DNA from: Spinacia oleracea
Lineage: Eukaryota > Streptophyta > Magnoliopsida > Caryophyllales > Amaranthaceae
Direction: 5' to 3'
Assembly (NCBI RefSeq): GCF_020520425.1
Contig: NC_079491.1
Coordinates: 3,782,001 to 3,846,000, forward strand
Length of the DNA stretch: 64,000 nt
Below are positions 7,585-63,785 of this stretch, in pieces (positions within the stretch are counted from its first letter, which is position 1; the number at the start of each line of letters is the position of its first letter). The position numbers and the translations under genes are program-made. A model generated the notes under the pieces. That model did not search any database. It was not told where the DNA came from and saw only the letters and a program-made list of their open reading frames with translations.

Positions 7585-7628
7585 TTAATGGTATGATTTT
7601 TTAGGTATGTGCCAATTGTTTGATGATA

Positions 7629-10246: not shown

Positions 10247-13200
10247 ATGGCAACTCTAACTTTCCTACTCCGCCGTAAACTCCACCACCAAAACCGCCAC
10301 ATACTCGCGCAATTTTCTCTCATTCGACAATTCTCATCCTCGGAAAGCTCCGGCGCCGGGAAGAAGCCGATGATTGAGAAGATATTGGTGGCTAACAGGG
10401 GAGAAATTGCGTGTAGAATAATGCGGACTGCGAAGAAATTAGGGGTTCGAACTGTTGCAGTTTACAGCGACGCTGATCGGGATAGTTTGCATGTCAAATT
10501 TGCTGATGAAGCTGTTCGTATTGGTCCTCCACCGGCGAAATTGAGTTATTTGCAAGCGAATTCAATTATTGAAGCTGCTAGGATGACTGGTGCTCAGGTG
10601 ATTTTTTTTATTTTGCTGAATTTTTATGGTTTTTTTTTTGTAATTTAATTAATGTTTTTGGTTTGTAGTTGGATGATATGTGACTAATGTGAGGAAGACG
10701 GCCAATTGATTATCTATTACAATTAGCATTGTCATGTAATTGATATTACTCCATAATTGTTTGCAGCTTGCTGAATTTGAATTTGAGCTTGTTGTTGTTG
10801 TAAGAAGAACCAGTTAGGTTATTCTAAAATTTTAATCAGCACTATGTGCTAGAAAAAATGTGTTTTTTTTTGAGCTTGTTGTTGTTGTAAGAAGAACCAG
10901 TTGGGTTATTCTAAAATTTTAATGAAAAAACGAGTTTTTTTTTTTTTTTTTTTTTTTTTGTAACTGGTAATCTGGTATACTTCGACCTTCCATAACACTA
11001 ATCAATGTGTGATTTAGTAAGACTAGTGTCGTATCAATACACTGCTAAGGAGTAGTGGAGTACCAATAGAGGCATTTGCGTTATCGATCCTGACATATTA
11101 TGTGTTGGTATTAAAAGTAGTTGTATTGGGTGAGGTGTGTGACTCGTGTCCAAATGGACACAAACCACTTGACGTTAAGAAATCCTCATGCGCCTTATGC
11201 ATTTAAAAAGCCGTGTTTTTTACATTTATTTTAAGTTTGCTGGATGATGGTTTGTTTTAGGAAGACGACAATACCATAACTATTTTTCACTTTCTAAATT
11301 TTTACGCCGTAGTTCTCTACCATGTTGCTAGGTGGATTATCTTTAGGATTTCGTAGTTAAGGGCATCAGAATAGTATGAGAAAGTTCAAAGTTAAACTTA
11401 CTATAATATGTTTTGGTCTATTACTTTTACTTGATAAAAGTTAGGAATATGGCTTACATTTTAGGCCTTATTTGGTTGGGAGGAATTGGAAGGAAAAGAA
11501 AATAAATGAAAGGAAAAATAACGTTTCTCGTGTTTGGTTCCAAAAATTATATGGGAAGTGGAAGGAAATGAAGGGAATTGGAAGGACAACTCCTTTATAA
11601 ATTTTCACTTTCCTTTCCTTCCAAGATTGGAGGAATTTGGAAGGAAGGAGAAAATAAAATCTGTCAAATAAAATATTAAATCCTAAACCCACGTTTTACC
11701 TTCCTTTCTCTTCCTTTCCTTTACTAATGTTGTACCAAACATGAGATTCCTATCATTTCCTTTCATCATATCAAACATGGGAAAATATATTTTATTTCCT
11801 TTACTTTCTCTATTATTTTCTTCCTTTCTTTTCTCATCCCTTCCCTTTCATTACTAATATTGAACCAAATGAAGCCTTAGGGATGGAGGCCGGAGGGACT
11901 GAGGAGTAAACACCTATGATCATCAATGCTGCTTCTCCTTCCATCTCAAAGTGTTTGTTATAGTTGAAGTTTCGTAAAGGTTAAAAGAGAGGAAAACCTA
12001 GCAGTATACTAGGTTTTGGAGTTTGCATTGGATGATTAGATTTGTAATGAAGGGTTAGAATATTATTAGTAGGCGTTATGTACAATTACTTACCACTCTA
12101 TCCTCTTGTTTTATAACTTTACAAGTAATATTTTAAGAAATTGTATTGGGAATTGTCTACAATTTCAATAACATTCTTGTAGATGGATGTAGTATGATGA
12201 ACTCTTAGGCATTCGGAACTATCTGCAGTTCTGAAAACAATGGCTGAAATTTTATTTAAATGGGAGTAACCTACAAGAAAATGAGACTTTCGAAGAGGGG
12301 ATACCTTTCAGTGTTTATATGTGCAAATGTTCCTGATAGGATATGACAATGATATGTACAATTTGTATTGAATAAAAGTTAGGTGATCTTGATGTATATA
12401 TTGATGGTGGCTGATGTTACTGCTACAGGAGCTGATTAGTCTTTCAGTTAGTACTATTGTAGTATTGTTAATATTGTACATAGTAGTTGATACTTGACAT
12501 TTCTGTCTGGAATTTTTCATGCAGGCAATCCACCCTGGTTATGGTTTTTTGTCTGAAAATGCGGAGTTTGCCCAGAAATGCGAAGACGAGGGTCTCTCAT
12601 TTATAGGTCCTCCAGCATCTGCAATACGGGATATGGGTGACAAAAGGTAAAACAAGCAATGCCTCATCATATTGTATTGAATTTTAAGTGGTTCACATAT
12701 CTTTTGATTGCTTGGCCCTAATGAGGCTCTAAAAATTGTCAACGTGTACCATTTTGTTGTAGCTTGCTCTACCTGCATGTGTTAGTTGAAGACTATAATA
12801 ATATCTAATTAAGCTAACCTTCATTTGGTTCACAGTGCATCAAAGAGGATAATGGGTGAAGCAGGTGTTCCTCTGGTGCCTGGATATCATGGTATTGATC
12901 AAGATATTGACCTAATGAAATCTGAAGCTGAAAAGATTGGCTATCCTATTCTAATAAAGCCAACACATGGAGGTGGAGGAAAGGTGTGCCATTTTATTGT
13001 GTTGACTATTGTTATAATTGGGTCATCGTTTGTTGCGCTTGCTGGGACTAGTTTTGAGTCTCACAACGGTATTCTAATTTGGTAGACCCTTAAAGTGCAG
13101 CTAAATAGCAAATACCACTATGTTTTGCGTCCTAGCTTCTTCAAATTGGAACCACAATAAACACTTTGTAGGAGACTCTGGGCTAGGGCAAGATTTTAAG

Positions 13201-16200
13201 TACTGTTACATACTATTTAACGTCCGATTCCAACTGTGATTATAGGAAACATGTTAAAGCAGAAAGAAATTATATTGTTTCTATTCTTTTGTTCTTGTGC
13301 TTTTAGCTTATTGAACCAGCTATGTAACCAAGAAATTTTGATATTAAATTAGGAGTGACCATGATTTTCTTTTTTCACCATTGGTTTATACCTGTTCTTA
13401 TTGGCAATGGCAGTTTTTTGAGTGCTTGGTGAAGTACTGGTTGAACACCTACACTTCAGCATCTTTCTAAAGAGAAGAGCATAACAAAATTTGTGAAGTG
13501 CTAACTTGAGTGATTGTTTCCAAGAATGAACCTTTCCTATATGTACTTGAGATTCTCCATGTCTTGCAAATTTCCATATGTCTCATCTGTTTTGTTTTTT
13601 AGGGCATGAGGATTGTGCAAAACCCGGATGAATTTGCTGAAGCATTCTTGGGTGCAAGAAGGGAGGCGGCTGCCTCTTTTGGAGTAGACACAATTTTGCT
13701 TGAGAAATATATCATTCGGCCTAGGCATATAGAAGTGCAGGTACCCCTCCCCTTTTCTTAACTTTTGTACATAACTATTGGCTTTTTGTTGCGCTTGAAA
13801 ATTATCCTCTTTTTTAATTGTAATGACGCCAGACATAAAACTTACATACATAAAACTTACATTCATCTAACTCTGTGAAGTGAAAGACGGGTCCGTCTTT
13901 ATTAATATGGCTAAAGTTCTAAACTTATTAAGTAGGTTTTCTTACTTTCTTTCATCTATCTGCTTTGTAGATTTTTGGCGACAAACATGGCAATGTTATA
14001 TATCTATATGAGAGGGATTGCAGTGTACAAAGAAGACACCAGAAAATAATTGAAGAAGCCCCAGCTGTAATGCCTCTCTATTTTATGTACAACTTCAAGA
14101 TTGTAGTTTGGAATACGTTTTAACTGATGTTCCATCATTGCAGCCCAATGTTAGTAATGATTTTCGCTCCCAAGTGGGTCAAGCTGCTGTTTCTGCAGCC
14201 AAGGTATTCTTCAGAATGTGCTTTGGCACTGGCTTGATAGTATTATTTGTATACCTTTTTCTTTGTATGGATCTCTAATTGGTCCAAAGGTTCTGCAGAA
14301 TGATGTCTGTGAATAAAATAAAATTGACCATAGTATTTCCATGTTCAGAAATATGGAATCATTTCAACTACCTGTCTCCTTATATTGTGAGGAGGTGTCC
14401 ACCATTTACAATAAATGTGATTGGCTAAAATCTATTTCAGTATTTCTTGATTTATGTTCTGTGTGCCTTTTGTAGTTCTGTTACCTGAGAAACATTTAGC
14501 TGATCCTAATTGAAAAGCATTGCCAATTGGGGATTTGCTTTCCAACTTCATAGAATCATAGGTGTCGTAACTTGTACGACCATTTTTTTCAGTTCTGTAT
14601 GCATCCTGCTATGTGAAAATTACAATGTAATATTCAGAGCTTCACTTTGTGTTTATCTCCTTTTCATGGGTATTCTTTAGTTCTTTTATGTTCTGTTCTA
14701 TTTTGTCAGATTAAGCCTCTGTTTCTCTCTTTTACTTTCTTAGGATTGGAGAGGGGAGGGGGGTGCTTTGTCACATTTGCATTCAATTTCCTATAAATGA
14801 AGTGCAGGGCCCCTACAATATATATCGTGGTTGCTTCCTTAGCAGTTGAGCTGAGAATACTGATGGGTTGAGATGTGAAAATTGTTGCTGTGAACGTTCT
14901 TTTCCCCCCTTTAGCTTGGAACTTGACCTCTTTGCACAAGCTCAAATTTATGTGGTTTTGTTTAGTTTGGACTGGACTGCTGGTTTTAGCAACTTTTTAT
15001 TGATAATTAGCATACTTCTCTCAATTCCGAAGCATCATTTTTCCACTTGGTCCTCTAATCCTCAGTCAGCTTTTTTCCTAGTGTTCAACCTGGTCCGCTG
15101 ATATAGCATGTTTTGTGGTGAAAGGCAGTCGGCTATTACAGTGCTGGAACTGTTGAATTCATTGTGGATACTCTCTCAGATCAATTTTACTTCATGGAGA
15201 TGAACACGCGGTTGCAGGTGCTACAATTGGTTCACTTTGTTGGTGTATGTCTACATCTCTACGCTTTTGTGAAGTGGACTCCTAACAAGTGGCGTGCACA
15301 AAATTTTGCAGGTTGAGCACCCTGTGACCGAGATGGTCGTTGGTCAAGATCTTGTAGAATGGCAGATTCGGGTTGCTAATGGTGAGCCTCTTCCTGTTAC
15401 GCAATCAGAGGTTCCATTATCAGGTGAGAATTTCCACACTTAAACAAGAACTCTTCAAAGGTGTCTTGCAGAATTTCTGAGCTGATGCTTTCATTCTGCC
15501 CTTCATATTGCCTGACTGCTCTTAATACTGGGATTTAGAACTAATAATTTCTTGGATAAAAGTAAAGTTAAAATATGTAAAATGGGAATATTAGGATAAT
15601 GATGTTCTTGTACTAAAGATATAGACATTTGAAATAGCACCAAAAATAAATTTAAAACACACTTGAATTGCAATTTTGGTCTTTCTGAGACCATTACAAT
15701 ATGTAGATAATTGAGTTGATATAGATTGATCATGATGACGTGCAAGAAGATGTGCTGACCGGTAGGATGCTTCATAGATTTTGTCATTGACTGTGTTTGA
15801 GGCTTTAGGTACTGCTTGGTGCTGATTTTAATGCTTCAATATTTATATTTTGAATTCTATAAAGCAATAGTGGTTGACTACTTCTTTAAAACAACTTTTT
15901 TGAAGAACTAAATATCACTGTGTTGTTTGGCCAATGGTAGTTAGTGTGGGTTTAATATTTTTTCAAGCATGGTCACACATGGCACACCAGAAGTTTGTTC
16001 TGTAGAGTGTAGATCTTTCTGCTTGTTTGTTAAGTCTGCAGTTTATGAAGTTTACGATATCTCTACTTGGTGATAGGTCATGCATTTGAAGCCCGTATAT
16101 ATGCCGAAAATGTCCAAAAAGGATTTCTCCCAGCTACTGGGGTTCTTCATCACTATCGACCTGTTCCAGAATCAGAAACAGGTTCTGCACCTCTCTTACT

Positions 16201-22311: not shown

Positions 22312-24097
22312 ATGGCGGACCACCTCTTCAACAGCATCTCCCTCGGCGGTCGTGGCGGCACGGTTAGTTTCTCTCTTCATTTGCTGCCTCTTTCTCTCAA
22401 TTTCTTTTAGCTCAGTGGTTTTCGTTTCATTTGCCCCCTTCTAACCCTAATTTTTCATGCAAAAGCTCGAAATTTCTGCGATTTCTTTTCTAGGGTTTGC
22501 TTATAACATATGCTCATCTCTTATTTCTCTTCCTGAGATTAATATTGGTAGCAAAGATGTAATTTTTTTAAAGCTTACTGATAATTTAATGTTTTATAGG
22601 GGTTAGGGTTTTTGTCTGCGTGAAATTAGGGTTTGATAAATTGAAACCGGAAGTATTATGAGAAATGGGACGAATTATACCTTCTTGTCCAGTTGATCTG
22701 ACTTTGCAAATTGCAATTTCAAACCCTAGTAATTGAACCCTAATTTCGCACCATCTAGCTGTAGAAGTTCGAATTTTGTGGTTTCGGATTTATTCGCTTG
22801 AACAATAGGATTCCTGTTTTCACTGCTAGTTATAATTTGTAGAACTTACTTGAATACCCAAGAAGGTAGTTTTCAGAGGTGTATATCGAACTTGCACGGG
22901 AATAGCTGATACAGATATTGGATGCTATTATAGAAAGTAAATACTAGAGGGCTTGCTGGAGAGAGAACGAAAGGGAAAATAGAAAAGAAAAAAATATTCT
23001 CTCTTCATTTCGTCTTTAAGGGCCTGTTACTAAGTGACTGAGTGCATAATATTGTACAATATTTTGTGCTCTATCACTTCGATTAAGAAGCTATTGGTTG
23101 TCATATGGTATCTGGGATTTACAAGTAACTTTATATTGGTAGATTAGACAACTAGTGAGTAAGTAAATGAAGTTGAGAGTAGATTATATTGAAATGTGTG
23201 TGGGAGGTTGCTTTTGTTTTAGCGAATATGGAGTAAGAAAGGAAGGGGAAATTCAGAAGATTAGCTTGCTGGAACACAAAGTAGGATTAGTGAAGAAGCA
23301 CTTCTACAACGTTTCCGCTTTCTTTCCTGTTTTGTATTTCTCTAGCCTGACCAGGCTAAAGATGACCCCCCCTCCCCCCCCCCCCCCCCCCCCACACCCT
23401 TCCTTCCTTTCACTTCTCCCTGCTACCAGTTTGTTGGTGTTTAGAGCATGTAGAATATTTATAGGTAATTACTGAATTTTATGTCTGTATTTATTCTGTC
23501 TTTGGTTTGTTATTGTAATTAGTTAATGCTGATCCCTTTTTTGTCCTGTGCGTGTGTTATGCAGAAGCCAGGGCAGATGAGAATCAATTCAGGCGGGATC
23601 CTGTGGAAAAAGCAGGGAGGTGGAAAAGCTGTTGAAGTTGATAAGAGTAATATCTCTGTGTTATTCTGGATGAAGGTGCAAAGGTCCACTCAACTTGGAG
23701 TTCGAAGCAAAGATGGATTGTACTATAAGTTTATAGGTTTCCGGGATACGGTGTGTTGCTTTTCTCCTGCACATTCTTTATTTCATTTGTCTACATCTGA
23801 TAAAGTCATTTTGAATGTGTTTAATGTTAGTATTGTCTTGTTTCTTTTTTCTTGCCTATGCAAGTCCAACCTAATCTGCAGTTTTGAGTTTACCTCATAT
23901 GTTAACATGAGCAAAGCGAAAGCAGAATATGGAAAAAAAAAATCAAGAACTATACTCTAATCTAGGTAGCACTGATACGGAAACGGGTATGGGGACGGAA
24001 AACGGCAAAACCAAAATATCTAAAAACGGGTACGGTTTGGATTCGGCAAAAAAAAATACATATATATAATTTAAGGTAATATATATATAATTTAAGG

Positions 24098-24137
<40 letters not shown>

Positions 24138-27100
24138 CCTTAAATTAAATATAATACTATGTTTAAATTATATATTACCGAGTAGTATATAACTATCTAT
24201 TACCTAACTGTTTCAAAGGAGTACGGAGTAATAAATAAGGGGTAGAAAGCAAATAGTTGAGTTTTGTAAAAAAAAATCAGTGGCCACGTGACGTGGTACC
24301 ACTTTCCACCTTTTTTTTTTTTGATTTATTATAAGTGGTGAGTGGTACTTTTATTTAAAACAAAAGGTAAAAAGAAGAGATCAAGAAGAAGAAATGGCGA
24401 GGAGTTAGGTCTTCTGACTTGCTGGTTCCTTCAATCGGCGAGGGGCGAGGTGATTCGGTTGGCGGCGGGCCGGCGGCGGCGGCTCTGCAAACGACGATTC
24501 GACCGGAGTTCGCTGGCTAGTTGAGTTGCTGGCCTCCCTGCAGCGCTGCTGCTCTCTGCTCAAGTGCTCAGATGCTAACTTGCTACGAACGGCCGGACCG
24601 GTGGTGGCGAGGAAGAAGAACGGCGGCGAGGGCACAACCGGCGGGCCGCGAAACGACGGGTGAGTAAGGCTTCCAAGAGAGGTGAGAGAGAAAGTGGGGT
24701 ATTTGGAAAATAAAACCCTAAAATTTGAATTTGGGTCTTAAAACTTCAGTAATAGCTGTTGGGTTCGTGGTTTATTTCCAAAAACGTACCCAAACCGTAC
24801 CCACCGCGTACCCAGCCGTACCCAAATTCAACCCGCGTACCCACATTTTGGGTTCGGCCTGGGGACGTTTCCTGGGCGTACCCGTCCCGTACCCGTACCG
24901 TTTCCCGTACCAACAGTACTTCCCAGGCGTACCCGGGCTTCATAGACCCTAATTGTATTAGATTGGATTCATAGGGTATTTTGGCTTGGTTTTAGGATAG
25001 GTCCTTGGATTTCCCTCTGTAAACTGACTTTTACTGCATTTATTGGATATAAAACTGTAGACAAATATGTACTTGTAATTTCTAAGATTCTTTATGTTGG
25101 ATGTTCTTTTGTGTACTAAGTATCAACATCTAATGATGTGGAAGCTCCTGCCAAGGGCAGCATAGAGGTGTCAGAGAGTATAGCTTTTCACTGCATTAAC
25201 AGAGGATTTTCAATTCACGGTCAAGTATAGATACACAAAAGCTGCATGCCATTTCATGTCAATAAGAAATGCAAATAATTGATTGATCTATTTTAATCTA
25301 GTGAATTTTTATTTATTTACAATTGATAAATTTATCTGAGAGGAAATGTCAGCTTTAACAGAAATTCAGAAGTTTTAAATAGGGGTTGGCTGATTTGGAT
25401 TTTGCTAGTATATTGCCTTTTGTCATCGCCTCATATGGAACTGCGAGTTAAACAACATTAGATACATGGTTTTATGAGCCTGGGAATGCTGCTAGTGATT
25501 AGTCCTGTGGCTGATGTTTATATTCTTCTGCATGATCAAGTTCACATTTTCAGTATAAAGACCGAGAGAGCGAGAACCCTTAAATCTTCTGGGTATCTAT
25601 GCCCTATTGGTAGATATTTGGATGTTTTTAAAGTGTACATCTACTCTCTTTAGTCTCGACTGTTGATTGCTTATGCTATTCTCTGCCTTTAAATTTTCTT
25701 TGAGTGAATACTTAGTACATTGCAGTGGTTCCTTTGTTGCAAATGCTTGAAAGTCATATGAATGTCTAGTCGTTCTATTACTGTTTAAGATCTTTTGAGG
25801 GAAAGCTTCTTGGAAGCTGATTAATTCTTCTGGTTTAATAGGATGTTGCCACTCTGACCACTTTCTTCCGAAGCAGCTTTGGAATAACCCCAGAAGAGAG
25901 ACAAGTGTCAGTCAGTGGGCATAATTGGGGAGAAGTTGACTTCAATGGTAACATGCTTTCTTCTTTATCTTCTTATTTAATGTCCCCTTTCTGGCTCTGC
26001 ATTCTTTTTTTTTATCCATTTCAGCCCAGGTGCTAATTACTGTTGACGCCAATAGTCTTTCTCTCTTTTTGGGGTGCTGGTGGGTTAGGTGTTTTGTCTA
26101 TTGGAGGAGCCTGCTATTTTAGTCAGCAGATAGACACTTTTCTGCCATCAAATATGATTTCCTGAAAGCTAGGTGAAACACCATTGAGAGGTCCAGCTTT
26201 GAGTACATCCAGATTCACAATTAATTTTTCTAGGTACATTGTACTTAGTAAAGTTGAGAGACAGGACTGCTTTGCACCTTGTAAACTTTAAGTACTGATT
26301 CAATTGTAGAGGAATGCATATATTGGCAAAATCTGAACACTACTAGGTGCTGCATTTTTAGTTTTTAAAGGGTTGGGATTTGGAGATGACTGGGTCAAAC
26401 CTACTGGAATTGAAGGGGACAAACAGAAAAAGTTTGAGATTGAATCTTTTATGAGAATATCCGTTTGACAATTGGACAACACTAGTTAGCGGTCGTTTGG
26501 TTGTAAAAAGGTGGAAAATTGCAGACACGTTTATGGTTAACAACATACAGGGAGTTACACTCTTGACTCGGAATGGAGGAAGTTGCTAGCCTAAACTCCC
26601 CAAAAATTCAGCCACTAGTATATAACTTCCCACAGGAAGTCCTACTTCCTACAGGCAATAGATTTTTTCAACTTCACAGGAACTGCAATTTCCAGTGAAG
26701 AACGACCCCTTATCCTCTAGAGCTTGGTGTTCAGACTTTGAAGCTCCGTGTAGATATGTTATTGAATAGCCATTTCTAAGTAGCTTCAAATCTTCGATAG
26801 ATAATAGCAGACTGAGCAGCCATTCTTTCATCTTTTCATATTTAAAAGCCTTATCTTTGGAAATCTTGCCTGCCTGCTGATTAGCTGAGTTCATTTGAGG
26901 CACCCTAGATTGGATGTTAGCCTAAAACTGATAGGTATTAATTTTTAGCCTATAGATGACTTACATAAATACTGATAGAGTGTTGACCTTGATTTTGGTC
27001 AAGCACATATGTGTATTTCTTGTCTTTTTTAATGTTAGCCTAAAACTGATAGGTATTGATTTTTAGCCTATAGATGACTTACATAAATACTGATAGAGTG

Positions 27101-30100
27101 TTAACCTTGATTTTGGTCAAGCACATGTGTATTTCTTGTCTTTTTTAAGATTCTTTGTCAACAAAATTATGTTCCTTGATCTATCTGGACTGAGTTGTGT
27201 CTTGTGTTATGGTAAGCTTATTGATATCTTATGCTCTTCTCAGGGAATATGTTGACTTTTCTCGATGGCTCAAAACAAGCATTTGAGCTATCTTTAACTG
27301 ATGTCTCACAAACACAGATGCAAGGAAAAACTGATGCTATATTGGAGTTCCATTTGGATGATGCAGCTGTTGCCAATGAGGTAGTTCTTTTACCATGCAT
27401 TAGAGTGACTTCAATTTGTTAATTCTTTTATTCGTCCCTTTGGTAACGTTGGTTGAGGCAACATTGTTTAGTTTCCTTTTACTGTATCTTGCAGAAAGAT
27501 ACACTTATGGAGATAAGTTTCCACATACCGAATTCGAACACCCAGTTTGTTGGTGATGAAAATCGCCCTTCAGCACAAGTGAGTTCCTTTCTGACTCTCA
27601 GATTCTTTCTGACAGACGTGTCTGTAAGACATTTGAAGATAGAATCTTAACGTTTTCCCTGTTATCTTCTTAGGTGTTCCATGATAAGATCATGTCTATG
27701 GCTGATGTAGATGCAGAAGAAGCTGTTGTCACATTCGACGGTATTGCTATTCTTACTCCAAGGTGTGTGCAACCCAGTCTACCTTTTCTTTCATGAGGAA
27801 ATGATATGAATTGTTGGTTTGTTTTTGTCTTTGCATACTTTTTTATTATGAAATGAACTGCTACTGACTCTCTCTTTATCCAGGGGTCGGTATAGCGTTG
27901 AACTGCATCTTTCATTCTTACGTCTCCAAGGACAAGCTAATGATTTTAAAATCCAGTATAGCAGCGTTGTTCGACTATTCTGTCTTCCCAAGGTTCCTTG
28001 CTTTTGAAACCTCCGTTGGCTTCTTTTGATTGGAATCTTATGCACTCATTGTGTAATGTTTTACTTATTGGTAGTTTTTTTCTATTGCGATGGTTGTTTA
28101 ACTTACGTTGTGTTCTTGCAGTCAAACCAACCACATACATTTGTTGTTATCACTCTTGATCCTCCAATTCGTAAAGGGCAAACGTTGTACCCTCATATCG
28201 TAATGCAGGTATTTGTAGTTCCATTCTCTGTACAATTTCATGCCTTCCCTTGATTGATATATGGTCTGTTTACTTTTAACTTTTTCCAGTTTGAGACCGA
28301 CTATGTTGTTGAAAGCACTCTTTCCATGAATGAAGACCTCTTGAATACCAAGTACAAGGATAAGTTGGAATCTTCGTACAAGGTAATGCATTGTGAAATT
28401 AGTTTTTGAATCATCTTTGCCATTGTCATTTGCGTTTCGTTGGCTTTTCATTATGAGTAATATAGAATTTATTGTTGGTTTCGCCATGACTCAGGGTCTC
28501 ATTCATGATGTGTTTACAAACATATTGCGTGCCTTATCTAGCGCCAAGGTCACCAGGCCTGGGAAATTCCGCAGCTGCCAAGATGGCTATGCTGTCAAGG
28601 CATCACTTAAAGCTGAAGACGGAATTCTATACCCACTTGAAAAGAGTTTCTTCTTCTTACCCAAACCTCCAACCCTTATTCTTCACGAGGAGGTTCTCTT
28701 CATTTATTTTGTGAAATTGTTAATTGTCATCCTGCCATATTTATAAGATAAATATTAATATGGACTAGCTGTCTATCTTCTAACAACATTGACTTCCTCC
28801 TGTATATAGATTGATTTTATGGAGTTCCAAAGGCACGTTGTTGCGGGGTCCAATATGCATTACTTTGATCTTCTTGTAAAACTGAAGACAGATCAGGAAC
28901 ATCTCTTCCGAAATATCCAGAGGAGTGAATACCAGAACTTGTTTGATTTCATCAGGTTTTTAACAAACTTCCACATTTTGGCTTCAACTGAAAGTAACGC
29001 CCACCTGATTTTAATCTGACACTCTTAAATCTGGTTATTTGCAGTGCTAAGGGCTTGAAAATCGTGAATGTCGGAGAAGGTGCTAATCTACCTTCAATCT
29101 CCATTGCACCTCTAAGTAGTGATGATGAAGTTGTGGACCCACATTTGAGAAGAATCAGGGATGCACAAGATGAAAGTGATGAAGAGGTATTAAACCACTC
29201 CCGTCTCTTTAAATATTATGGAGTTTACGGTATGAAAGTTCAAATCAATATCTTGCTTTGAAAACCTTCTGTCTTTTCTTGTTTCCTTCAATTTATTTTT
29301 CTTCTCGTTGTACCTAAGCTTTGCCGGGAAAAGTTTGATCAAATAGCTGTGACTTTTTTTAACAGGATGAAGATTTTGTTATAGACAAGGACGATGGAGG
29401 GTCTCCTACTGATGACTCTGAAGAAGATCATTCAGATGGTAGTGTTAGTGGCGATGAGAAAGAGGTATGTAGCTGTTGACCAAAACATCCATTTTCATGA
29501 GAAATATATCTGTTTTTTCTGATTCAGTTTAATGTGGGTGGGTCGTTACAGAAGCCTGCTAAGAAAGAAAAGAAAGACTCGGCATCATTAAAACCTTCTT
29601 CAAGCAAGAAGAAATCTAGAGACGGGGATGAAGACGGATCGAAGAAGAGGAAAACGAAGAGGAAAAAGGATCCAAATGCTCCTAAAAAGGCAAAAACCGG
29701 TTTTATATTCTTCTCTCAAGCTGAGCGGGAGGTAAAGATGACAACAGATACAATTGTTTCATATTTATTGAAGTATATTCCATTGCCGAGTACTTGATTT
29801 TTAATATTTTGGGTGTATAATGCAGAACACAAAGAAAGAAAATCCAGGGATTGCATTCTTAGAAATGGGGAAGGCTCTTGGAGAGAAATGGAGGAAAATG
29901 TCAGGTATGAATCGTATGATGCTCTATAAATAGTAACAATGGCGGATCCAGGGGGGGGGGAGCTATCTATGCCAAGTCTTTACCCCATTGTTAAAAGTTA
30001 GATATTAGTATTAAATGTTCTTTAACTAAACGCATGAAAAAATCTAGCTCAGTTGGTCTGTACAATAGTTTAAAGGGTCTAGGTTGAATGCGTGGGTCAA

Positions 30101-30898
30101 GGGTTCAATTCCACTTATCCTCATTTTTTGACCTTGCTCTCTACTTGACTCCCTCTTGTTTATTTCTTCCTATAGCATAATATTTACCACCTTTAAAGTT
30201 TCAGTTTTTTGTATTTACCACCTTATAAAATGTATTTTCATACTTACCACCTTAATTTTATGAAACGTTTTAAATTCACCACCTCTTAATGGTTTTCATC
30301 CAACTTTCGGTCCATGTGAACCCTATTTAACTAACTTCATTAATTGGAAACCTAATGGAAGTGGAGGGAAATTAAAGAAGTTGGTTGAAGGCTCATATGG
30401 ACCAAAAATGGGATGAAATCCGTTAAAAAGTGGTAAATACAAAAAAATTCATAAAATTGAGGTGGTAAATATGAAATTACATTTTATAAGGTGGTAAATA
30501 CAAAAACTTGAAACTTAAAAGTAGGTAAATATGAAAATTTTCCAAATTTTAACTGAAATATCTTCTGTATTCATACTATACTACTACGTACTTGAATATT
30601 TCTTATGTTACTCATTAATAGGTTTTAAAAAAAATTACAATTACTTTGATCAATTTTATTTGGCCTACCCTATAAAAAATTTATGGTTCCGCCACTGAAT
30701 AGTAATACATTCTAATATATTTTGTGAAAGTAATTGAGAATTACCTAACACAATCCTAAACTGGTTGCAGCCGAGGAAAAAGAACCCTTTGAAGCACAAG
30801 CTCGCGCTGACAAGAAACGGTACAGTGAAGAAATTGGTGATTACAAGAATCCGCAATCTGTAAATGTGGATTCGGGGAATGATTCTGAAAGCGAATGA
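22312..30898 (+). CDS. SSRP1: FACT complex subunit SSRP1
   Basis: HMG-box subunit of the FACT histone chaperone, which partners SPT16 and helps polymerases pass nucleosomes; nuclear. Sixteen coding exons: 22312-22362, 23565-23750, 25842-25947, 27244-27380, 27495-27578, 27674-27762, 27884-27992, 28122-28208, 28290-28382, 28495-28692, 28810-28955, 29045-29186, 29366-29464, 29552-29731, 29826-29904, 30771-30898. They join in frame to 637 aa, near the plant norm of about 640. The N-terminal POB3/SSRP1 region includes [19 protein letters not shown]. The middle PH-type domain includes [19 protein letters not shown]. An acidic tract (about 460-509) and a Lys-rich stretch (530-550) precede the HMG box (about 548-620, [18 protein letters not shown]). 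The tail [11 protein letters not shown] matches other plant SSRP1 proteins. Introns 2 and 15 carry large DNA transposons. Confidence 0.97.
23964..24950. mobile_element. About 1-kb DNA element in SSRP1 intron 2 with GGGTACGG-rich ends and a GC-rich core
   Basis: The left end begins near GTAGCACTGATACGGAAACG. The reverse complement of the right end begins GAAGCCCGGGTACGCC, a loose terminal inverted repeat. Both flanks are full of GGGTACGG / CCGTACCC words. The middle (24400-24660) is conspicuously GC-rich against an AT-rich background and rich in CGGCGG. An (AT)n run sits at 24100-24136. No transposase is visible. Probably a non-autonomous hAT- or Mutator-like element. Boundaries are approximate and no convincing target duplication was found. 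Confidence 0.45.
26914..27147. repeat. Tandem duplication of about 118 bp in SSRP1 intron 3
   Basis: The block beginning ATGTTAGCCTAAAACTGATA at 26914 is repeated immediately at 27032 with only a few differences, up to the shared end CTTGTCTTTTTTAA. Confidence 0.95.
29937..30697. mobile_element. hAT-type element in SSRP1 intron 15 with AATAGTAA target duplication
   Basis: The left end CAATGGCGGATCCAG and the right end GGTTCCGCCACTG are inverted repeats. The perfect 8-bp direct repeat AATAGTAA flanks the element at 29929-29936 and 30698-30705, as expected for hAT transposons. Inside are tRNA-like A and B box motifs (about 30046-30112) and a nested foldback element (30178-30543). No transposase is seen. 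Confidence 0.85.
30178..30543. mobile_element. Foldback MITE nested in the hAT element
   Basis: The first about 85 bp (TAATATTTACCACCTTTAAA onward) return at the right side as a near-perfect reverse complement ending in AGGTAAATATGAAAATTTTC. The transcript of this intron could fold into a long hairpin. Confidence 0.8.
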
Positions 30899-32357
30899 AT
30901 GATGTTGTGGAAATCTTCCTTTGTAGCTATTTTGAATGAGGATCAATAATCATATGATTATCTTGTGTAGTTAATTTATTCCGTAGTTATTTTCTGTAGA
31001 ATCTGTACCAAGGTAAGTACGGAAATTAGATGTTTACTCGTGTGAACTTGTTTTGGATGAGTTAAACATGGAATTTTGGCAGCTCCCATCTAGTCCTCAA
31101 AATCATTGTGATTATTAAATTATGACAAATTTCAAGTTCTTGATTCTGCCTAAATCATACTTTATTTGTTTAACTTCAAAATTACAAAATTGAAAACTCA
31201 CGAGTGATATCGAACGAGTCTAAAGTCTGCCATCTTAGCATAACAGAGACATGGTCAATTGGTCATGCTTGCAGTTTTGCGAAGATGACTACCTCTTTTC
31301 TGCATGCATCAATTCATATTTGGGCACTATTGATTATTTATTTTTGACAATATTTTTTTCACCATTATGTAAGAAAAAACATAGTTAAGTGCGTTTTTGT
31401 TAAATTTGTATCATAGCGAGGATTTCACATATCAACTTTTTATATATTTTTTTTACTTATATGCATTTAGAGTAGACTTGATCAAATGTCGGGCCAGGTT
31501 CGGGCCGGTTTGAGGCATACAAATCAGTCCGTTGTGCCGGGCCGGGCCAAGATCTGAGCTACAACATTGTACCCAAACCCGCTAATTTGAGCCTAAAATG
31601 GCAGGCTTTTCGGGCTATTTTTGGGTTGGGCCAAATTTATAACTAAAAAGTGTAGTTTTATGTTGTCCAAACCCGTCAAAAAAATACGGAGTATTAAATT
31701 TGGGCAGGGCTCATCTTGATCATCTCTAATTTAGAGATATTAATGTCCAAAGAAGCGTGTTGGAATACGTGTAAAAAGAAAGTTGTATGTATTATGAAAC
31801 AAAAAAAAATATTATCTTATTATACGTACAAAAAGAAATGTTGCATGTATTATAGAACGAAAGTAGTAGTATTACGTGCAAACTCGACTTTGTTGCTTAC
31901 ATCATTTTCTGTTTGTATGATAGCATACAAAAGAGCATGCTCACAATAATGGAAGCAATTACTTGTACACTTAATCAACATCGTTTATGTGGAAAATGTT
32001 GAAAGCTCTTATAATATTTGTCCTTGTCTAATGTTAGGCAACGACCATACCGTTTTGGAAGGGGCGGTTCATTTCTTGCATGGTATTTCATCCTAAAACT
32101 TCCCATTTGTTTTTCTTTTAATACGTCATTAGAATAATGACACAATTTGCAAAGTCTTTATAACATGTTTCACATTCTCTATGGTTCGTTGGAGTTTAGG
32201 GTGGGATTCAGAGTTATATTAATTAATTGGTGGCAAAAATTATGTTTGAATGAGATTTATAACCAGTTGGAGATAGAATATTTTAATCTCGTTGAAATAA
32301 TACGTATAGGCTACGCATTATTAAAAAAGGAATATTACTAAATGAAAGGAGTATTTT
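30899..32357. other. SSRP1 3' flank and intergenic DNA
   Basis: The SSRP1 3' UTR begins at 30899. At 31477-31725 lies a repeat rich in GGGCCGGGCC and AAACCCG with TTGATCA near both ends; it resembles, in the opposite orientation, the CCCGACCCG-rich repeat at 51630-51965. A short frame at 31716-31949 is not recognised as a gene. Confidence 0.45.
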
Positions 32358-33200: not shown

Positions 33201-33912
33201 GTATTTCTGTCTTCCCAATTTTGTTTTCTAATTAATAAATTGGTTTTTTCTGCTTGAATTTATATGATTTTTTATCTTCTTTTTTTGTATTTTTGTGTGA
33301 AGTGTGAACTTTTTGGAATTTCTTTTTTCCTTGTGTACGTGGGGTGGGATAAAAGTCATTTTCTCAGGGTTTTTTTTGTTGTTGTTGTTGTAGTTTGGTG
33401 ATTATGATTGGTAGAAATTTAGCATCTTTAAGCTTAAGTATTTAATTCTGAATTTGATAGTTTTGTGCTTCAATTAATTCTTGGTGAAAGTTTTTGTTTT
33501 TATTTTTATTTTTTTATATCTTGGTGAAAGTTTTGATCTTTATTATTAATTTTAGAAGAAAAAGGTGGTTTTTAGTTATTCTTGGTGAAAGTTTATTTTT
33601 TTCATAACAACTCTTGGTGAAAGTTTTGATCTTTATTATTAATTTTAGAAGAAAAAGGTTGGATTTTTGGTTATCCTTGGTGAAAGTTCATTTTTTTTTT
33701 AAATAACAATTCTTGGTGAAAGTTTTGATTTAGAAGAAAAAGGTTGGATTTTTACTTTTAACCCTTGTTTGGAATTGTATTTTCTTCTTAATTTTGATTA
33801 GTTTTTACCTTAACCAATTTAAATTTCTTCATTTCCATCAATTTTTGCCAATAGCTGTTTTTCTGGGTTTCTCTGTATCTGAATTCATTGAAATTTTTTA
33901 AAAATTATTTAG
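33201..33912 (+). other. 5' leader intron of the kinase gene, with minisatellite
   Basis: A donor CAG|GTATTT follows a pyrimidine-rich leader (about 33100-33200), and an acceptor TTATTTAG|GGG lies 9 bp before the start codon, giving a likely intron in the 5' UTR. Between 33480 and 33760 the word CTTGGTGAAAGTT recurs at least six times, within imperfect units of about 110 bp that include TTTAGAAGAAAAAGGTT. Leader introns often raise expression in plants; that role here is inferred. Confidence 0.6.
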
Positions 33913-43600: not shown

Positions 43601-46118
43601 TGCCCTTACCAAAAAGTATACATATAAAGTAGGAAGAAGAGAAAGAAAAGTAACAGGAGTTATTTCCTCGTATCGTATTAGTTAATGATTCCTTTTGTTG
43701 CCAACTTGCCATACTATATCTTTTGATGAACATCTCTTGGTGATTGGACCATGATTTAGTATATATTTTATGCATATGTTGTTTGATAGCATACCATGAT
43801 GGCACCATGTTAGAAAGCAGAGGATATTCTTTCGGGATTCTAAGCAGCTTCCCGTATTAGGCCAATTCCTGTTTTCTTCATGTATGAGATAGCTTACACC
43901 ACAACCAGAGAACTTATTTTGCCACGTGTTGTCCCTATGGGGCACTATGACACTATCAGTTGGAATTAGAGGGAATTCTAACAAACCTTAATTTGAATGT
44001 TCAATATTTTCTCTTTACATAACCCATTGGTCATGCGGTTCATGCCAATCCATTGCTAACATCACTAGTAAAACTTGTTGCCTGTTTAGACAGTGGATGA
44101 TACTCGGGACCCTGAATTACTTCACTAATACTCCATTTCCAAGGCTATTATTCATTTCTGTTAGACCTAGATCCTAGCCAGAAATGGTGCACAAACTGAT
44201 GGAACCCCATCAAGTTGTCCAATAGTTGATGGAACCTACGACTTTTTTTCCGGAGGCAGGCCTAAAACATTTTTACCAATGGTTTTCAAGTCATGTCCAA
44301 GTTGGCCATTTAAATATTAGACTCCATATGGCCCTAGTGAGTGAGTTTTTGATGTCTTCTGTGGCTGCTTCCATCTATGTCTCCCTACTGCACCCACAAA
44401 GGCTATAAGCTTATAAGTCACACCCTATGTTACTTGGAAACGAATATCCATATTGGACAGTGGTAGGTGTCCAAGTGTCCGACAAGGGTATTTTGTGAAA
44501 AAATTGCATGATTTTGGTCTAAAATGAAGTGTCCAAGTGTCACACACATGTCCGAGTGTCGAGGATCCGACACGGGTATTTGAGGTCAAATGAAGAGTCG
44601 AGGTAAAAGAGGTCACACCATTGAGAACATTTTAAGGGGTAGAATTGACGGGAGATCTTCTGGCATCACCTGGTATACAGTATGACACTGTATCCATACC
44701 TTACTGCTCGTGAATTGGGAAGATCCTTCAGTACGTTCTTGGAAAATTTATTTGGTACAAGGAATTGTGTTGTTACTGAATGGGCCACTTAATCTGTAAA
44801 GGGACTAGATTCTAGGTTTATTACCTCTTTCGCATGCTCTAAGTTATGTTCAGAATACCCATTCTGTCTATTATATTAATCAGAGTGAAAACACCAGTTT
44901 TTTTTAATAGTTTCCTAGGGCTGCCAACTTGTCACGTGCCAACACCAGCTATTTGGATCATCTATGATGTGAACCTGGAATGATCCACAGCACACCTTTT
45001 TTTTTGAAATCTAGAATTCATATTTGTTAGGCCTTTCTCAAACCTGGTAAGAAACTTGATGGACTTTGAGCCTCTTTCAGTTACTTTCTAAATTTTCTAA
45101 ACTGCAAGATGTTATCAGAAAAAATGCAAGGAAGTTTCTCAGGCTGCGCGTTTGAGTTCTAAGCTATTGATGATTGATAATATTTGGTTCATCAGTGTAT
45201 CTCATTTTGAAGACTATAAGTTCTGCCTTTGTGATTGGTAGCATGTAATCATATATGTATATTAGTAAGCACTCTCAGTTCGAATTATTACATTTCCACC
45301 ATTTCTGAACTTGTCAGCACTAGGGAGTGATCATAGGAGTGCAAAAGCTCAAATCTGGCTTAAAAAATATCAGTCCGTAATTTTTACTCTGATTTGGTGG
45401 TTCAGCTAGAACGGAAATTGTCTATATTTACTACTGGTATGGGTGGAAATTGTCTATATTAACTATTATAGGGGTGGAAATTACTGACTTCACTGGCCTT
45501 TTCCTAATATTAACTGCAGAGCATCCCTTCTTTTGGATGCAAATTAAAGAATCGTGAAACTGATTTGAGTAGAAATAAGGTTGTTCTCTTCATATTAAAA
45601 TGATTTGTAAGCCTCTATGGAATTTGTGCCTGTTTAGGAAGCTGTTTCATCTGTAGCGTAGTTTTGATATTTTTCTTTGTGTACTACTCCGTATGATTTT
45701 GTAATTATCTTCTGTAGTATTTTGGTACAATTGGTTCTATCTGTCTTAATGTTAACAACCTGAACTTATGCATGTTGCCTGGTTTTTAAATTATTAAATG
45801 TCTCAGATTTAGTAGAAACAGCATGATCTTGTGATTTATGTTAAGGCATTAAGATTGCTCATTTTCTGTCACTAATGGGTAGCTGAGTTTGACTGTTAAC
45901 TGCTTATTTTGTTATTTCTACAGAAATTTCATTCTTCTGACACAGAAATTTCATTCCTGCAGCAAAATACAGGTGTTCAAGATGAAGATTTTGTTTCTTA
46001 TGTGAAAAATTGGCAGAAGGCAGGCGCTTCTCTATTTGGCGGTTGTTGTAGAACTACTCCAAAGACGATAAATGGCATTTACAGGACTCTCTCAGAGCAT
46101 TCAGTGTCACTGCGTTAA
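40655..46118 (+). CDS. HMT: Homocysteine S-methyltransferase
   Basis: Transfers a methyl group to homocysteine to make methionine; in plants the usual donor is S-methylmethionine. Zinc enzyme, probably cytosolic. Exons 40655-40816, 41848-41904, 42012-42250, 42563-42692, 42979-43182, 43401-43472 and 45963-46118 join in frame to 339 aa, close to the 326-347 aa known for plant HMTs. The N-terminal signature is VDGGLATELERHGADLNDPLWS. The zinc-binding cysteines are present: GINC (Cys249) and GGCC (Cys316, Cys317). SYQATIQGF and IIIYPNSGE are family motifs. Intron 6 is 2.5 kb. The exon 7 start is chosen by alignment to the family (NWV followed by QNTGV); another in-frame acceptor at 45924 would add 13 residues. 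The family has several members and the sequence alone does not say which paralogue this is. Confidence 0.95.
41277..41562. mobile_element. Tourist-like MITE in HMT intron 1
   Basis: The left end AGCAACTCCAATCG and the right end ATTAGAGTTGCT are inverted, a diverged relative of the GAGCATCTCCAATGG family (7272, 39087). Inner TAGCTTGAAA / AGCTAGTTAGC words match that family. Confidence 0.55.
44420..44640. repeat. GTGTCCAAGTGTC / CCGACACGGGTA repeat in HMT intron 6
   Basis: Short words GTGTCCAAGTGTC, TCCGAGTGTCG and CCGACACGGGTATTT are crowded here, next to GTTACTTGGAAACGAATATC. This resembles the ends of an abundant plant DNA-transposon family, but boundaries are not clear. Confidence 0.45.
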
Positions 46119-51977: not shown

Positions 51978-52335
51978 AGGCCCTATTTGGTTCATTATTA
52001 GTAAAGGAAAGGAAGAGAAAAGAAAGGAAGGGAAAAGAAAGGAAAAGAAGGGAAGGGAAAGAGATTTTATTTTCCCGTGTTTGGTTTAAGGGAAAGAAAT
52101 GAAGGGAAGAGAAAGGAAATATGAATGACAGCTTTTTAATTTTCTCTTTCCTTCCGAATTCCTCCGATTTTGGGAGGAAAAGAAAGTGAAAATTTTATAA
52201 AGGAACTTTCCTTCCAATTCCCTTCCTTTCCTTCCACTTCCCATATAATTATTTGTACCAAATACAGAAAACATTATTTTACCTTTCCTTTCTTTTCTTT
52301 TCCTTCCGATTCCTCCCAACCAAATAAAGCCTTAG
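51978..52335. mobile_element. MITE with GGCCCTATTTGGTT ends just upstream of the oxygenase gene
   Basis: The left end AGGCCCTATTTGGTTCATTA and the right end CCAACCAAATAAAGCCTTAG are inverted, with a purine/pyrimidine-rich interior. It ends about 105 bp before the start codon, so it forms much of the proximal promoter. Confidence 0.7.
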
Positions 52336-52441: not shown

Positions 52442-55400
52442 ATGGAGAAGTTTCCGGTAATAGATCTGGAGCCGTACTTGGAATTGGAGAGAAGCGGGAA
52501 TGGGAATTCCGATGAAATGAAGAGGTTGTGTATGGAGGTTAGCCGGACATTGAAGGAGACGGGAGCTTTACTGGTAAAAGATCCCAGATGTTCTGCGCAA
52601 GACAACGACCGTTTCCTTGATATGATGGAGAATTATTTTCAGCAACCTCCCGATTTTAAGCGCCTTCAAGAACGCCCTCTTTTGCATTATCAGGTTTTGC
52701 AATTGAATTTCCTTTCAATTTTTGACCCCTCTTGTCATTCAATTCATATTTTTTGATTAAATTTGCCTTTGAATTTGATTCCTCTTGTCATATTTTTTGA
52801 TTTGCCTTTGAATTTGATTCCTCTTGTCACCGAATCCCTTTGAATTGATCGTTTCATCAATTCCCTTGTCATTGGAATGCTCATGTATGTTTAATTATAT
52901 TCATACAATTATCAGGTTTTTCTTTCTTACCACCTATTTTTTCGACAATTGAATTTCCTCTCAATTGAACCCCTCTTGTTATTGAATTCATATTTTTTTT
53001 TTATTTGCCTTTGAATTTGATCAAAACAAGTGACATCTGGAGCCACATTCTTTGGCTGTATCGTGGGATTTTGAAAGATATCTGTTGTTCCTGTAAATTT
53101 TGTTCGTGATATATGTTAACTTTAAATATAACTATATGGAGTGACTTTCGAGTTTTCTGAAGTGAATCCAGGAGTTTGGCATTGTTGCTTGTGATTTGAG
53201 GGCTCAGTTATGGAGTTTATTTTATGCTGCTTACTTTTTGTTAGCTTTCTGTTTTTTGGTCCAGATTTTGATTAGTTTTTACCTTAACCAATTTAAATTT
53301 CTTAATTGTTAAATACCTCTTCATCACTCTCATCTTGTGCATCCCTGATTCTTCTCAAATGTTGATCCACAACTTCATCATCACTACTTAGAGGTGCAAT
53401 GGAGATTGAAGGTAGATTAGCACCTTCTCCGACATTCACGATTTTCAAGCCCTTATGACTGCAAATAACCAGATTAAGAGTGTAGATTAAAATAAGTTGT
53501 TACTTTCAGTCGAAACCAAAATGTGGAAGTTTGTTAAAACCTGATGAAATCAAACAAGTTCTGGGTATGCTTACTTTTTGTTAAATTTCTCAGTAGGCCG
53601 TAAATAGAAAGTGTGACAATTAAATTGGGACGGAGGGAGTAACCCATTGGTCATGCAGCTCATACCAATCTATTGCGAACACCACTTGTGCATATTCATC
53701 CTTGTCATTGGAATGCCCATGTATGTTTAATTGTATTGATAGGTTGGAGTTACTCCAGAAGGAGTTGAAGTCCCCCGGAGTTTGGTGGATGCAGAAATGC
53801 AAGAAAAGCTAAAAGCTATGCCGTCCGAGTATCAGCCTTCGACTCCAACAGGGCCTGATCCTAAGTGGAGATATATGTGGAGGATCGGTCCTCGCCCATC
53901 TAATACCAGCTTTAAGGAATTGAATGCTGAGCCTGTTATTCCGCAGGGATTCCCAGAATGGAAAGATACCATGGATTCATGGGGTCTCAAAATGATATCA
54001 GCTGTTAATGTTGTGGCTGAGATGGCGGCTATTGGATTTGGCTTGCCTAAGGATGCTTTCACTTCTCTCATGAACCAGGTAAATCTTTTTTGCTGAAAAT
54101 ATTAATATCCCCTTGTGTAGGCCTTATTTGGTTGGAAAAGAATAGAAAGGAAAGGAAAAATAACTTTTCCTATGTTTGGTTCCAAAAATTATATGGAAAG
54201 TGAAAGGAAGGGAAGGGGAGTGGAAGGAACACCTCCTTTACAAAAGTTTCACTTTCCTTTCCTCCCAAAATTGGAGGAATTTGGAAGGAGAGAGAAAACT
54301 AAGGGCCTATTTGGTTCATTATTAGTAAAGGAAAGGTTCGCCCGCTGTTTAGCCTCTTTTATTCTCTCATCGGAAATTGCCTTCCAAATCTCTTCAAAAA
54401 TGTTTGTTCCAGAACCTTCCTTCTGCAACTTCCATATTACTATGTCTAACACGATGCTCAACTAATCTAGAAAGATTGGTAATAGATTTACATCAAACTC
54501 CCAAGATGTCATTCAAAAATCTACATATGTAAATAAGATCCCCAAACAAGAAAGATTTGTGGAAGAAAGTAGACCAGGATAGTCTTTTCGCATGGATAAA
54601 CTACAACATTGATAGTATGTGACTATTTTTTTTTTTGAGATAATATGTGACTATTGTTTGCAATTTTGCATAGGCGAGAGTAAAATGTACATGAGAGGTA
54701 TTTGTTTTTAGTTTTTTTAATTTTGTTTTTCATTCCCTTGTCTTTCTTTCCTTTACTAATGTTTTACCAAACGTGGGATTTCTATCATTTCCTTTCATCT
54801 AACCAAACATGGGAATTGGAAAATTATAGTTTATTTCCTTTCTTTTCTCTTCCCTTCCCTTCCTTTCTCTTCCTTTCCCTTCCCTTCCTTCACTAATATT
54901 GAACCAAACGAAGCCGTAGTATTTATAGTACTGCATTCAAAGTATGGATACTCGACTACTATGATTCTTATTGGAATTTTCCTGGTTCTCAGGGGCCTCA
55001 TCTTCTTGCTCCAACTGGGAGTGACCTTCATCATTATGGGAAGGAGGGGACTGTCTTTGCAGGGTATCACTACGACCTTAACTTCTTAACTATCCATGGG
55101 AGGAGTAGGTTTCCAGGACTGAACATTTGGCTCAGAAATGGGGAAAAGGTGGAAGTTAAAGTTCCCATTGGATGTCTTCTTATTCAGACCGGAAAACAGG
55201 TAAGCCAAATACAATACAACATAGCATTGAAATTATTCATTGTTTTGGAGTGGATGGTTTCGTCTTAACAAATGCTATTAAGAGAATGATATGACAACTG
55301 TAAGCCAGCTCAATCCTACAAATGTGGACTGATATGAAAACTTCCAGGCATTATTTGTAAAAGCTACCTATTGTGTATTGTCATGGTTGACGGAACTGCT

Positions 55401-58261: not shown

Positions 58262-58600
58262 GGTCTTGTTTTGGTTTTGGATGTGGCTGTTCTGTTTTGT
58301 TCTGTTCTGAGCTGCCTGGTTGAAGTGAACGGCTTAAGCTTTGCTTCTTCTTTTTTTTTTTCTTTGGTTGAATCCTGAAATTTTGAAAGATATCTGTTGT
58401 CCCTGTAAATTTTGTTCGTGATATCTGTTCACTTTAAATAAAACTATATGGACTGACTTTCGAGTTTTCTGAAGTGAATGTAGGAGTTTGGCATTGTTGC
58501 TTGTGATTTGAGGGCTCAGTTATGGAGTTGGATTTTATGTTGCCTACTTTTTGTTAGCTTTCTGTTTTCTGGTCCCTTTTTTATGAGGGTATAGTAAGGG
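58262..58600 (+). repeat. Dispersed repeat copy 2, 3' flank of the lipid transfer protein gene
   Basis: It contains GAGCTGCCTGGTTGAAGTGA, AAGCTTTGCTTCTT and then the block shared with 53063-53262, ending near ATGAGGGTATAGTAAGGGTT. The longer version returns at 62950-63785. Confidence 0.9.
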
Positions 58601-62949: not shown

Positions 62950-63785
62950 GGGGCTGCAGTTGTTCTGTTCTGTTTGCTGTGAGCTGCCTGGTTGAAGTGA
63001 GAGGCTTAATTCTTAAGCTTTGCTTCTTTTTTTTTCTTTGGTTATATTTTCATGAGTAGTTGTATATCTGGTATTGAAGTGTTTTTTTTTTTTGAAGGAA
63101 TAACTGGTGGTGTTTTATTTGTATGGTTTTATTTGTTGCTAATTTGTACCAAACAAGAGATTCATTTCCTTATTACTTACCATAGATCAAGTAAGGGAAT
63201 CACACATAAGTATTACCAAACAACCAATAATTGTAATAGTTAACATTACCCGTTCTCCTTCTTATTTGTTTACATTCCACTCCCTTTCCAACATTCATAT
63301 CAAACCTGCACAACACTTAATATGAATGCATCTCATTAATTATTACATAGATAGATAAAATAGTTTTGATTTATATGGTTATGTTGATCGTATTTTCTAT
63401 TGAAGTTCAACATCAACAGTCTATGGTGTACAGCTCTTCGGCTGACATTCATTTTTAGGAGTTAATAGACCCCCCCCCCCCCCCCTAACGAGTCCTTGTT
63501 AAGTGGACGCATATAATTTCTGTCTTTCAAATTTTATCTGGTTTCTTATTTCCTGGAATTTTGAAAGATATCTGCTGTTCCTGTAAATTTTGTTCATGAT
63601 ATATGTTCTCATTTAAATATAACAATATGAAGTGACTTTTGAATTTTCTGAAGTGTACCTAGGAGTTTGGGGTTGTTGCTTGTGATTTGAGGGCTCAGTT
63701 ATGGAGTTGATTTTATGCTGCTTACTTTTTTGTTAGCTTTCTGTTTTCTGGTCCCTTCTTTATGAAGGCATAGTAAGGGTTTACT
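62950..63785 (+). repeat. Dispersed repeat copy 3, with an insertion
   Basis: It matches 58262-58600 at both ends (GAGCTGCCTGGTTGAAGTGA near 62986; TTTTGAAAGATATCTGCTGT near 63553), but about 500 bp of unrelated DNA (about 63046-63548, including a C run at 63473-63486) separates the two halves. Confidence 0.85.

Follow-up and report, generated by a model that had tools for sequence, protein, structure and literature searches.

A 794-bp mosaic block in intron 1 of a spinach oxygenase gene, probably complex filler DNA templated by nearby loci

Intron 1 of an oxygenase gene of spinach (Spinacia oleracea) contains a 794-bp block composed of pieces of the intron itself and of neighbouring loci. 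With a probability of about 0.73, we consider this block to be complex filler DNA produced by serial template switching on nearby chromatin during the repair of a break. More than one template was used, and the templates are nearby: the intron itself and four loci lying 5.3 (our best guess for tract A), 9.6, 19.5 and 24.4 kb away. Because the donor sequences are still in place, the block was copied and not moved. All positions refer to the window, the whole stretch of 64,000 nucleotides that was analysed, and the features are collected in Table 1.

Table 1. Acceptor intron, tracts of the inserted block and donor loci (window positions)
Feature	Position	Strand	Remarks
Oxygenase exon 1	52442-52693	+	open frame ending HYQ (...LHYQ); DIOX_N match
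Intron 1 (acceptor)	52694-53742	+	1049 bp, GT...AG, from sequence
Left copy of intron's own 3' segment (c)	52864-52905	+	39/42 identical to 53700-53741
Inserted block	52906-53699		794 bp; templates assigned for 698 bp
Exon-1/intron-1 boundary copy	52908-52920	+	13/13 vs 52686-52698; makes AG/GT within the intron
Copy of intron's own start	52946-53021	+	86% vs 52700-52779
Tract A	53048-53262	+	215 bp; likeliest donor 58360-58575 (92%)
Tract B	53265-53307	+	42/43 vs 33791-33833; sole other genome place among matches listed
Tract C	53308-53564	-	257 bp; inverted SSRP1 29195-28932; 94% over 264 columns
Possible short echo of tract A	53568-53590	+	21/23 vs 53228-53250; weak: E 0.001 in window, 0.08 in 264 kb
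Tract D, lone right end of Stowaway MITE	53596-53641	+	from 53596/53599; at most 96% to copies elsewhere
Tract E	53640-53689	+	43/50 vs HMT locus 44020-44069; sole other genome place among matches listed
Right copy of intron's own 3' segment	53700-53741	+	adjoins 3' splice site
Donor of tract C	28932-29195	+	SSRP1
Donor of tract B	33791-33833	+	upstream of kinase frame
Donor of tract E	44020-44069	+	HMT locus; begins at empty TA
Likely donor of tract A	58360-58575	+	~0.8 kb downstream of LTP-like frame

The oxygenase label comes from DIOX_N, which matches exons 1 and 2 together at 25.7 bits (E 2e-5), slightly below the Pfam cut-off of 27.3; exon 2 begins at 53743 (VGVTPEG...). The tracts, their order and their matches are established. 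The block is framed by a 42-bp segment of the intron's 3' part, present once on each side, and runs in order through 2 bp, a 13-bp copy of the exon-1/intron-1 boundary, 25 bp, a 76-bp copy of the intron's own start, 26 bp and tract A, and after it through 2 bp, tract B, tract C, 31 bp, tract D, tract E and 10 bp. The spacers between successive tracts A to E are 2, 0 and 31 bp and none, and the joints share ~0-4 bp as judged by eye in ungapped views. A previous, sequence-only reading of this DNA had described intron 1 as a mosaic of pieces from neighbouring loci. The pieces that it named are indeed present with small corrections of coordinates, among them the two copies of the 3' segment, whose borders and 39/42 identity are now those of Table 1. 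The alignment of the intron to the window and the genome that it proposed assigns donors for 698 of the 794 bp, 46 of which belong to a high-copy MITE (tract D) with no known donor copy, and leaves 96 bp without a template.

Several short parts of the intron are less clear-cut. By itself the 13-bp boundary copy reaches only E 0.5 in the window, and it is credible through its position beside the copy of the intron start; the AG/GT that it creates at 52908-52920 is a possible recursive or alternative splice site. The 31 bp between tracts C and D have no firm donor, and 23 of them resemble part of tract A, while for the 25-bp and 26-bp stretches the best match within the window had E ~0.05 and no convincing donor was found in 264 kb. 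Outside the block, 88 bp in the left part of the intron (52744-52829) match C3 at 139.92 Mb with 82% identity in the whole-genome search and overlap the template of the own-start copy, so the content of intron 1 is partly non-local and the older intron partly non-unique. A paralogue search for the ancestral intron 1 gave, besides the oxygenase itself, only C5:25101756-25102196 among the matches listed; this is a broken, intronless-looking oxygenase fragment, perhaps a retrocopy, and was set aside as uninformative on intron 1. A single repeat, in largely inverted copies, also borders exons 1 and 2 on both sides (51978-52332 and 54128-54336; main parts 85-87%), and a third copy lies at 11463-11880.

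This is a clean natural case: three tracts have a single other genome place among the matches listed, which allows most templates to be identified together with their distance and orientation. We searched 894,210,420 bases in 242 contigs, the large contigs met being C1-C6, and intron 1 as query returned 45 listed matches, with 40 of 57 candidates scored. The 39-bp exact run to the kinase region (33791-33829) noticed earlier is real and lies within the 43 bp of tract B, which match at 42 positions. Across the whole genome, a 251-bp query around the donor lists itself, intron 1 (98%, E 1e-11) and its own neighbouring repeat; the kinase label derives from the motif HRDVKTENVLL...DFGVAR in the frames. 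For tract E, a 171-bp query around the donor lists itself and intron 1 (E 1.4e-7) in the whole genome. Some 50 bp had been likened to HMT, and 43 of 50 do match, although at 44020-44069 rather than at 44030-44079, a shift of 10 bp. The HMT label rests on Pfam matches above the cut-off, whereas NCBIfam scores fell below the full-length cut-off with single exons as query. This HMT match was listed with the donor as query and not with intron 1 as query, so 'only', when said of donors, means only among the matches listed.

Tract C provides the direction of copying. With intron 1 as the query, SSRP1 in the window is its only other genome place among the matches listed, and the inverted piece, earlier placed at 28929-29191, runs from 29195 to 28932 at 94%. 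Splice signals and frame indicate that it runs, in antisense, from the end of an SSRP1 exon through an intron and the next exon into the beginning of the following intron. Since intron and exon are both included, tract C was copied from genomic DNA of SSRP1. This content establishes the direction for tract C; for tracts B and E copying presumably also ran from donor to intron. The 29-kb gene carries an Rttp106-like middle-domain match upstream, and we take it to be SSRP1. When 22500-31500 was searched against the genome (40 of 1112 candidates scored), the part at ~26.5-30.2 kb otherwise listed only intron 1, and other stretches matched C1, C4, C6 and a high-copy element. A palindromic high-copy element of ~360 bp with copies on C1-C6 lies beside SSRP1 at 30180-30541. 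The antisense SSRP1 sequence in intron 1 (53308-53564) could give rise to trans-acting antisense or small RNA. Selection on it was considered and rejected, as the changes in the exon part (5/166) and in the intron part (5/91) do not differ significantly (Fisher p 0.33), and a 90-base exact run to SSRP1 29048-29137 is, as sequence, insufficient for claiming a function.

Tract A belongs to a small family, which the genome search found at 58.4 kb and 63.6 kb in the window, at 100.5 Mb on C1 and, more distantly, on C3, C5 and C6. The repeat had been described as shared with 58375 and 63549; the refined pairs are 53048-53262 with 58360-58575, and 53061-53262 with 63551-63754 (91%). Over the shared part, the intron tract has 14 mismatches to the 58-kb copy and, by blastn, 17 to the 63-kb copy and 20 to the C1 copy, and the remaining members are 69-82% identical to the intron copy. 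In addition, 13 further bases at the left of tract A match the 58-kb copy at 11 positions; the 63-kb and C1 copies show no similarity there. Our best guess is that the donor was the 58-kb copy, 5.3 kb away, which has a narrow lead; the 63-kb copy, 10.5 kb away, is a possible donor too. The margin over the C1 copy is modest, and on these matches the local origin of tract A is the weakest link of the local reading. The 63-kb copy of the repeat is interrupted by ~507 bp (63044-63550) and the C1 relative by ~474 bp at the same point, and the 58-kb copy is uninterrupted.

Tract D is, as had been proposed, the lone right end of a Stowaway element. It carries the Stowaway terminal GGGACGGAGGGAG and the TA target site, and a second end is absent from tract D, which holds 43-46 bp of the right end only. 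Such ends account for 34 matched places or parts of places among the 45 genome matches listed. Four relatives were fetched, three of which also have the left end TACTCCCTCCGTCCC (lengths 167, 283 and 284 bp, with one or two changes in the right end) and one of which has the right end only. The claim that all donors are local, within about 25 kb, holds for tracts B, C and E, found only there among the matches listed; for tract A, however, the margin is narrow, and the Stowaway end could have come from anywhere.

The joint of tract D with tract E is informative. Tract D ends exactly at the terminal base of the element, the next TA is the TA that opens tract E, and the HMT locus itself reads ...TTTACATAACCC... 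with an empty TA. Judged from these sequences, the joint is a MITE insertion joint with a shared TA, and two random switch points would rarely coincide at a MITE terminus and a TA. A single copying event from an HMT allele that carried a Stowaway at TA 44020-44021 probably produced both tract D and tract E. An explanation restricted to the MITE is that the Stowaway entered the HMT tract when this had already been copied into the intron, and that a later break there removed its left part; breakage of the MITE itself may even have triggered repair. The MITE does terminate exactly at the TA common to the HMT tract, and excision of DNA transposons in rice is reported to accompany filler insertion (PMC4423477). 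Nevertheless, this course of events requires an extra step, and today's empty TA at HMT fits a MITE that was polymorphic in the donor equally well; we regard it as unlikely.

The sequence-only reading had named occurrence of the same segments at many places as the sign of an ordinary dispersed repeat. The kinase, SSRP1 and HMT segments do not behave in this way, whereas the Stowaway end does and tract A does in part, with relatives on several chromosomes. We find it hardly credible that the whole block consists of dispersed repeats that became adjacent in the intron by chance. This would be true of the Stowaway end, with its 34 matches among those listed, and agrees with the tract A family on C1, C3, C5 and C6 and with the C3 match of 52744-52829; tracts B, C and E, however, occur nowhere but at their donor and in intron 1 among the matches listed, and for these three the explanation is refuted within the reach of the searches.

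Plant mobile elements carry gene fragments, Pack-MULEs being an example, and a Pack-MULE, Helitron or Stowaway-related element might have captured the fragments and brought them into the intron. Such an origin seems to us very improbable. A Stowaway end is present, and a 9-bp inverted match joins the end regions with its left arm (52903-52911) on the left border, but its right arm (53728-53736) lies ~30 bp beyond the right border. Searches with exact 8-bp words found no Pack-MULE or TIR signature (terminal inverted repeats, target duplication) at both block ends, and no Helitron CTRR 3' end occurs near the right border (53650-53739, plus strand). At 42 bp, the flanking direct repeat does not resemble the target duplication of a transposon. 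Among the genome matches listed, the composite occurs at no other place, and tracts B, C and E each have one donor among those matches, all less than 25 kb away. Of the two origins offered earlier, template-switching repair is the best reading, whereas element capture, with no matching ends and no second composite listed, fits poorly.

The filler reading is supported by the short duplication of the broken segment, by ordered and abutting tracts in either orientation, by joints of ~0-4 bp and by donors retained nearby; the break, the polymerase switching and the single episode are the parts of it that we infer. A chromosome break close to the 3' end of oxygenase intron 1 would have been the first step, and the 42-bp segment at the break would have been duplicated by fill-in of the staggered ends. 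Before joining, a free 3' end would have primed synthesis in turn on several templates, namely the intron's own start, the 58-kb locus, the kinase region, SSRP1 in the opposite orientation and the HMT locus. The switches would have used ~0-4 shared bases, with all templates less than 25 kb away and in cis, and the Stowaway end and the HMT tract would probably have been taken together from a Stowaway-bearing HMT allele at TA 44020. We think that tracts from kilobases away suit SDSA or MMBIR-like synthesis better than polymerase-theta fillers.

The block might instead have accumulated stepwise, through separate local repair events over time or through a tandem duplication of the whole intron followed by insertions in the second copy. 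This is possible, if doubtful. The own-locus pieces (52908-52920, 52946-53021 and 53700-53741) could equally represent a second intron copy with its middle replaced, divergences of 2-14% are spread among the tracts, and a second local mosaic nearby, described below, suggests that the process recurs. On the other side, there is almost no spacer between tracts, no tract interrupts another save for the weak echo of tract A, and the divergences are compatible with one age. Differences amount to 16/215 in tract A, 5/91 in the SSRP1 intron part, 1/43 in tract B, 7/50 in tract E, 3/42 in 3' segment c and 7/76 in the own-start copy, or 39/517 when pooled, with tract B (2%) and tract E (14%) as the extremes. 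A common-rate test across tracts gave p 0.35 by chi-square and permutation, at low power with 1-16 differences per tract, and the tract divergences can be said to fit one age with that low power. The SSRP1 exon parts (5/166) are close to the share of one freely changing copy if both copies together make up 7.5%. At a substitution rate of 6.5e-9 per site and year, ~4% change per copy would place the event at ~5-6 million years, which is a rough guess.

To cover the surroundings, intron 1 was compared, using short words, with 264 kb (the window and 100 kb on each side). No better donor was found within 100 kb on either side of the window at E < 0.01, and the tract matches fall between 29 and 64 kb in the window. 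Matches for tracts A, B, C and E and the 3' segment had E values of 1e-92 to 7.6e-10 in this search. A naive value of 1e-17 for four donors in 50 kb was discarded, as it assumes independence. Self-comparison of the 264 kb for low-copy pairs of 35-800 bp gave 39 pairs less than 1 kb apart, 15 at 1-5, 15 at 5-10, 13 at 10-25, 13 at 25-50, 8 at 50-100, 10 at 100-150 and 5 at 150-264 kb. Normalised to pair area, this amounts to an approximately tenfold fall from 5-10 kb to more than 50 kb. Paralogues and tandem copies are among the pairs, so the fall cannot be read as patching alone.

Clusters of low-copy matches (35-400 bp, at least 80%) with two or more donors numbered seven at 1-30 kb, two at 30-60 kb and none at 60-264 kb in the 264 kb. 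Intron 1 is the richest of the seven; its five matches include the 63-kb relative of tract A. Two more, at 58.4 and 63.6 kb, arise from tract A when its donors are taken as the starting point, the pair at 131-133 and 135 kb resembles collinear paralogues, and one at -26 kb and the second mosaic complete the seven. The 30-60 kb band holds the oxygenase-flanking repeat at 11463-11880 and 7215-7585. At the latter, two low-copy matches with partners at -24081 and 39086 lie adjacent, perhaps as another composite.

The second, smaller local mosaic lies at C5:3770407-3770670 (about -11593 to -11330 in the window), 64 kb upstream of the intron mosaic, and adjoins a high-copy repeat. It sets pieces of window 8305-8412 (8352-8371 being present twice) side by side with 15619-15692 and 15792-15836, from donors that are separated by 7 kb and lie 20-27 kb from the acceptor. 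No other places for its pieces were found among the genome matches listed; for one of them, a further match (48 bp, 83%) turned up at -20238 in the 264-kb search. With two cases, the second mosaic speaks for a recurring local process. We tentatively raise the idea that breaks in this genome are regularly patched from one ~30-kb chromatin neighbourhood, leaving many local mosaics. If this were true, each mosaic would preserve, like a fossil, which sequences had touched within one nucleus; no relatives would be needed to read this record, and it could be set against contact maps.

Longer fillers have reportedly been seen in tobacco and in T-DNA studies, and work by Vaughn and Bennetzen (2014) is cited in connection with rice tandem duplications by patch repair. 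In a maize paper on p2/p1, R-r, wx and bz1, filler is termed simple or complex and sizes of 1-131 bp are quoted (PMC2686159). The spinach block resembles the complex maize filler in being an intronic, nearby-copied insertion that is a mosaic of several origins (p2/p1 intron 2). It differs from the 50 bp and two sites given there for p2/p1 by its 794 bp and its at least five templates including its own locus, four of them 5-24 kb away and one inverted (PMC2686159). For rice DNA-transposon excision sites, 58 filler cases with a mean of 13 bp and a range of 1-123 bp are reported. There, too, foreign segments are copied into a break, SDSA being the explanation given, but the rice filler sits at excision sites, whereas the spinach block has no demonstrated excision site (PMC4423477). 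The way in which a short segment of the intron was directly duplicated at the break recalls the tandem duplications by patch repair in rice, as these are summarised in PMC7971508, although the spinach copies are parted by 794 bp that come mostly from other loci. Polymerase-theta insertions in Arabidopsis, likewise called 'fillers', also involve repeated primer-template switching on molecules in the vicinity, but their templates are often the break flank or T-DNA, in contrast to spinach tracts of 43-257 bp from kilobases away (PMC10923293).

No earlier description of this locus was found in titles or abstract openings of the open-licence literature. The mosaic had been called unusual, which is right for its size and for the number of its distant-in-cis templates, whereas complex filler DNA as a kind is known; with 794 bp and five or more templates as far as 24 kb away, the block exceeds the filler sizes quoted in the consulted parts of these papers. 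A simple search for low-copy fragments within 30 kb could count such scars genome-wide. Taken together, our results suggest that filler synthesis in plants can extend over hundreds of bases and draw on several loci in cis at distances of up to 24 kb, and they show how an intron can lengthen and pick up antisense sequence from a nearby gene when no transposon delivers it.
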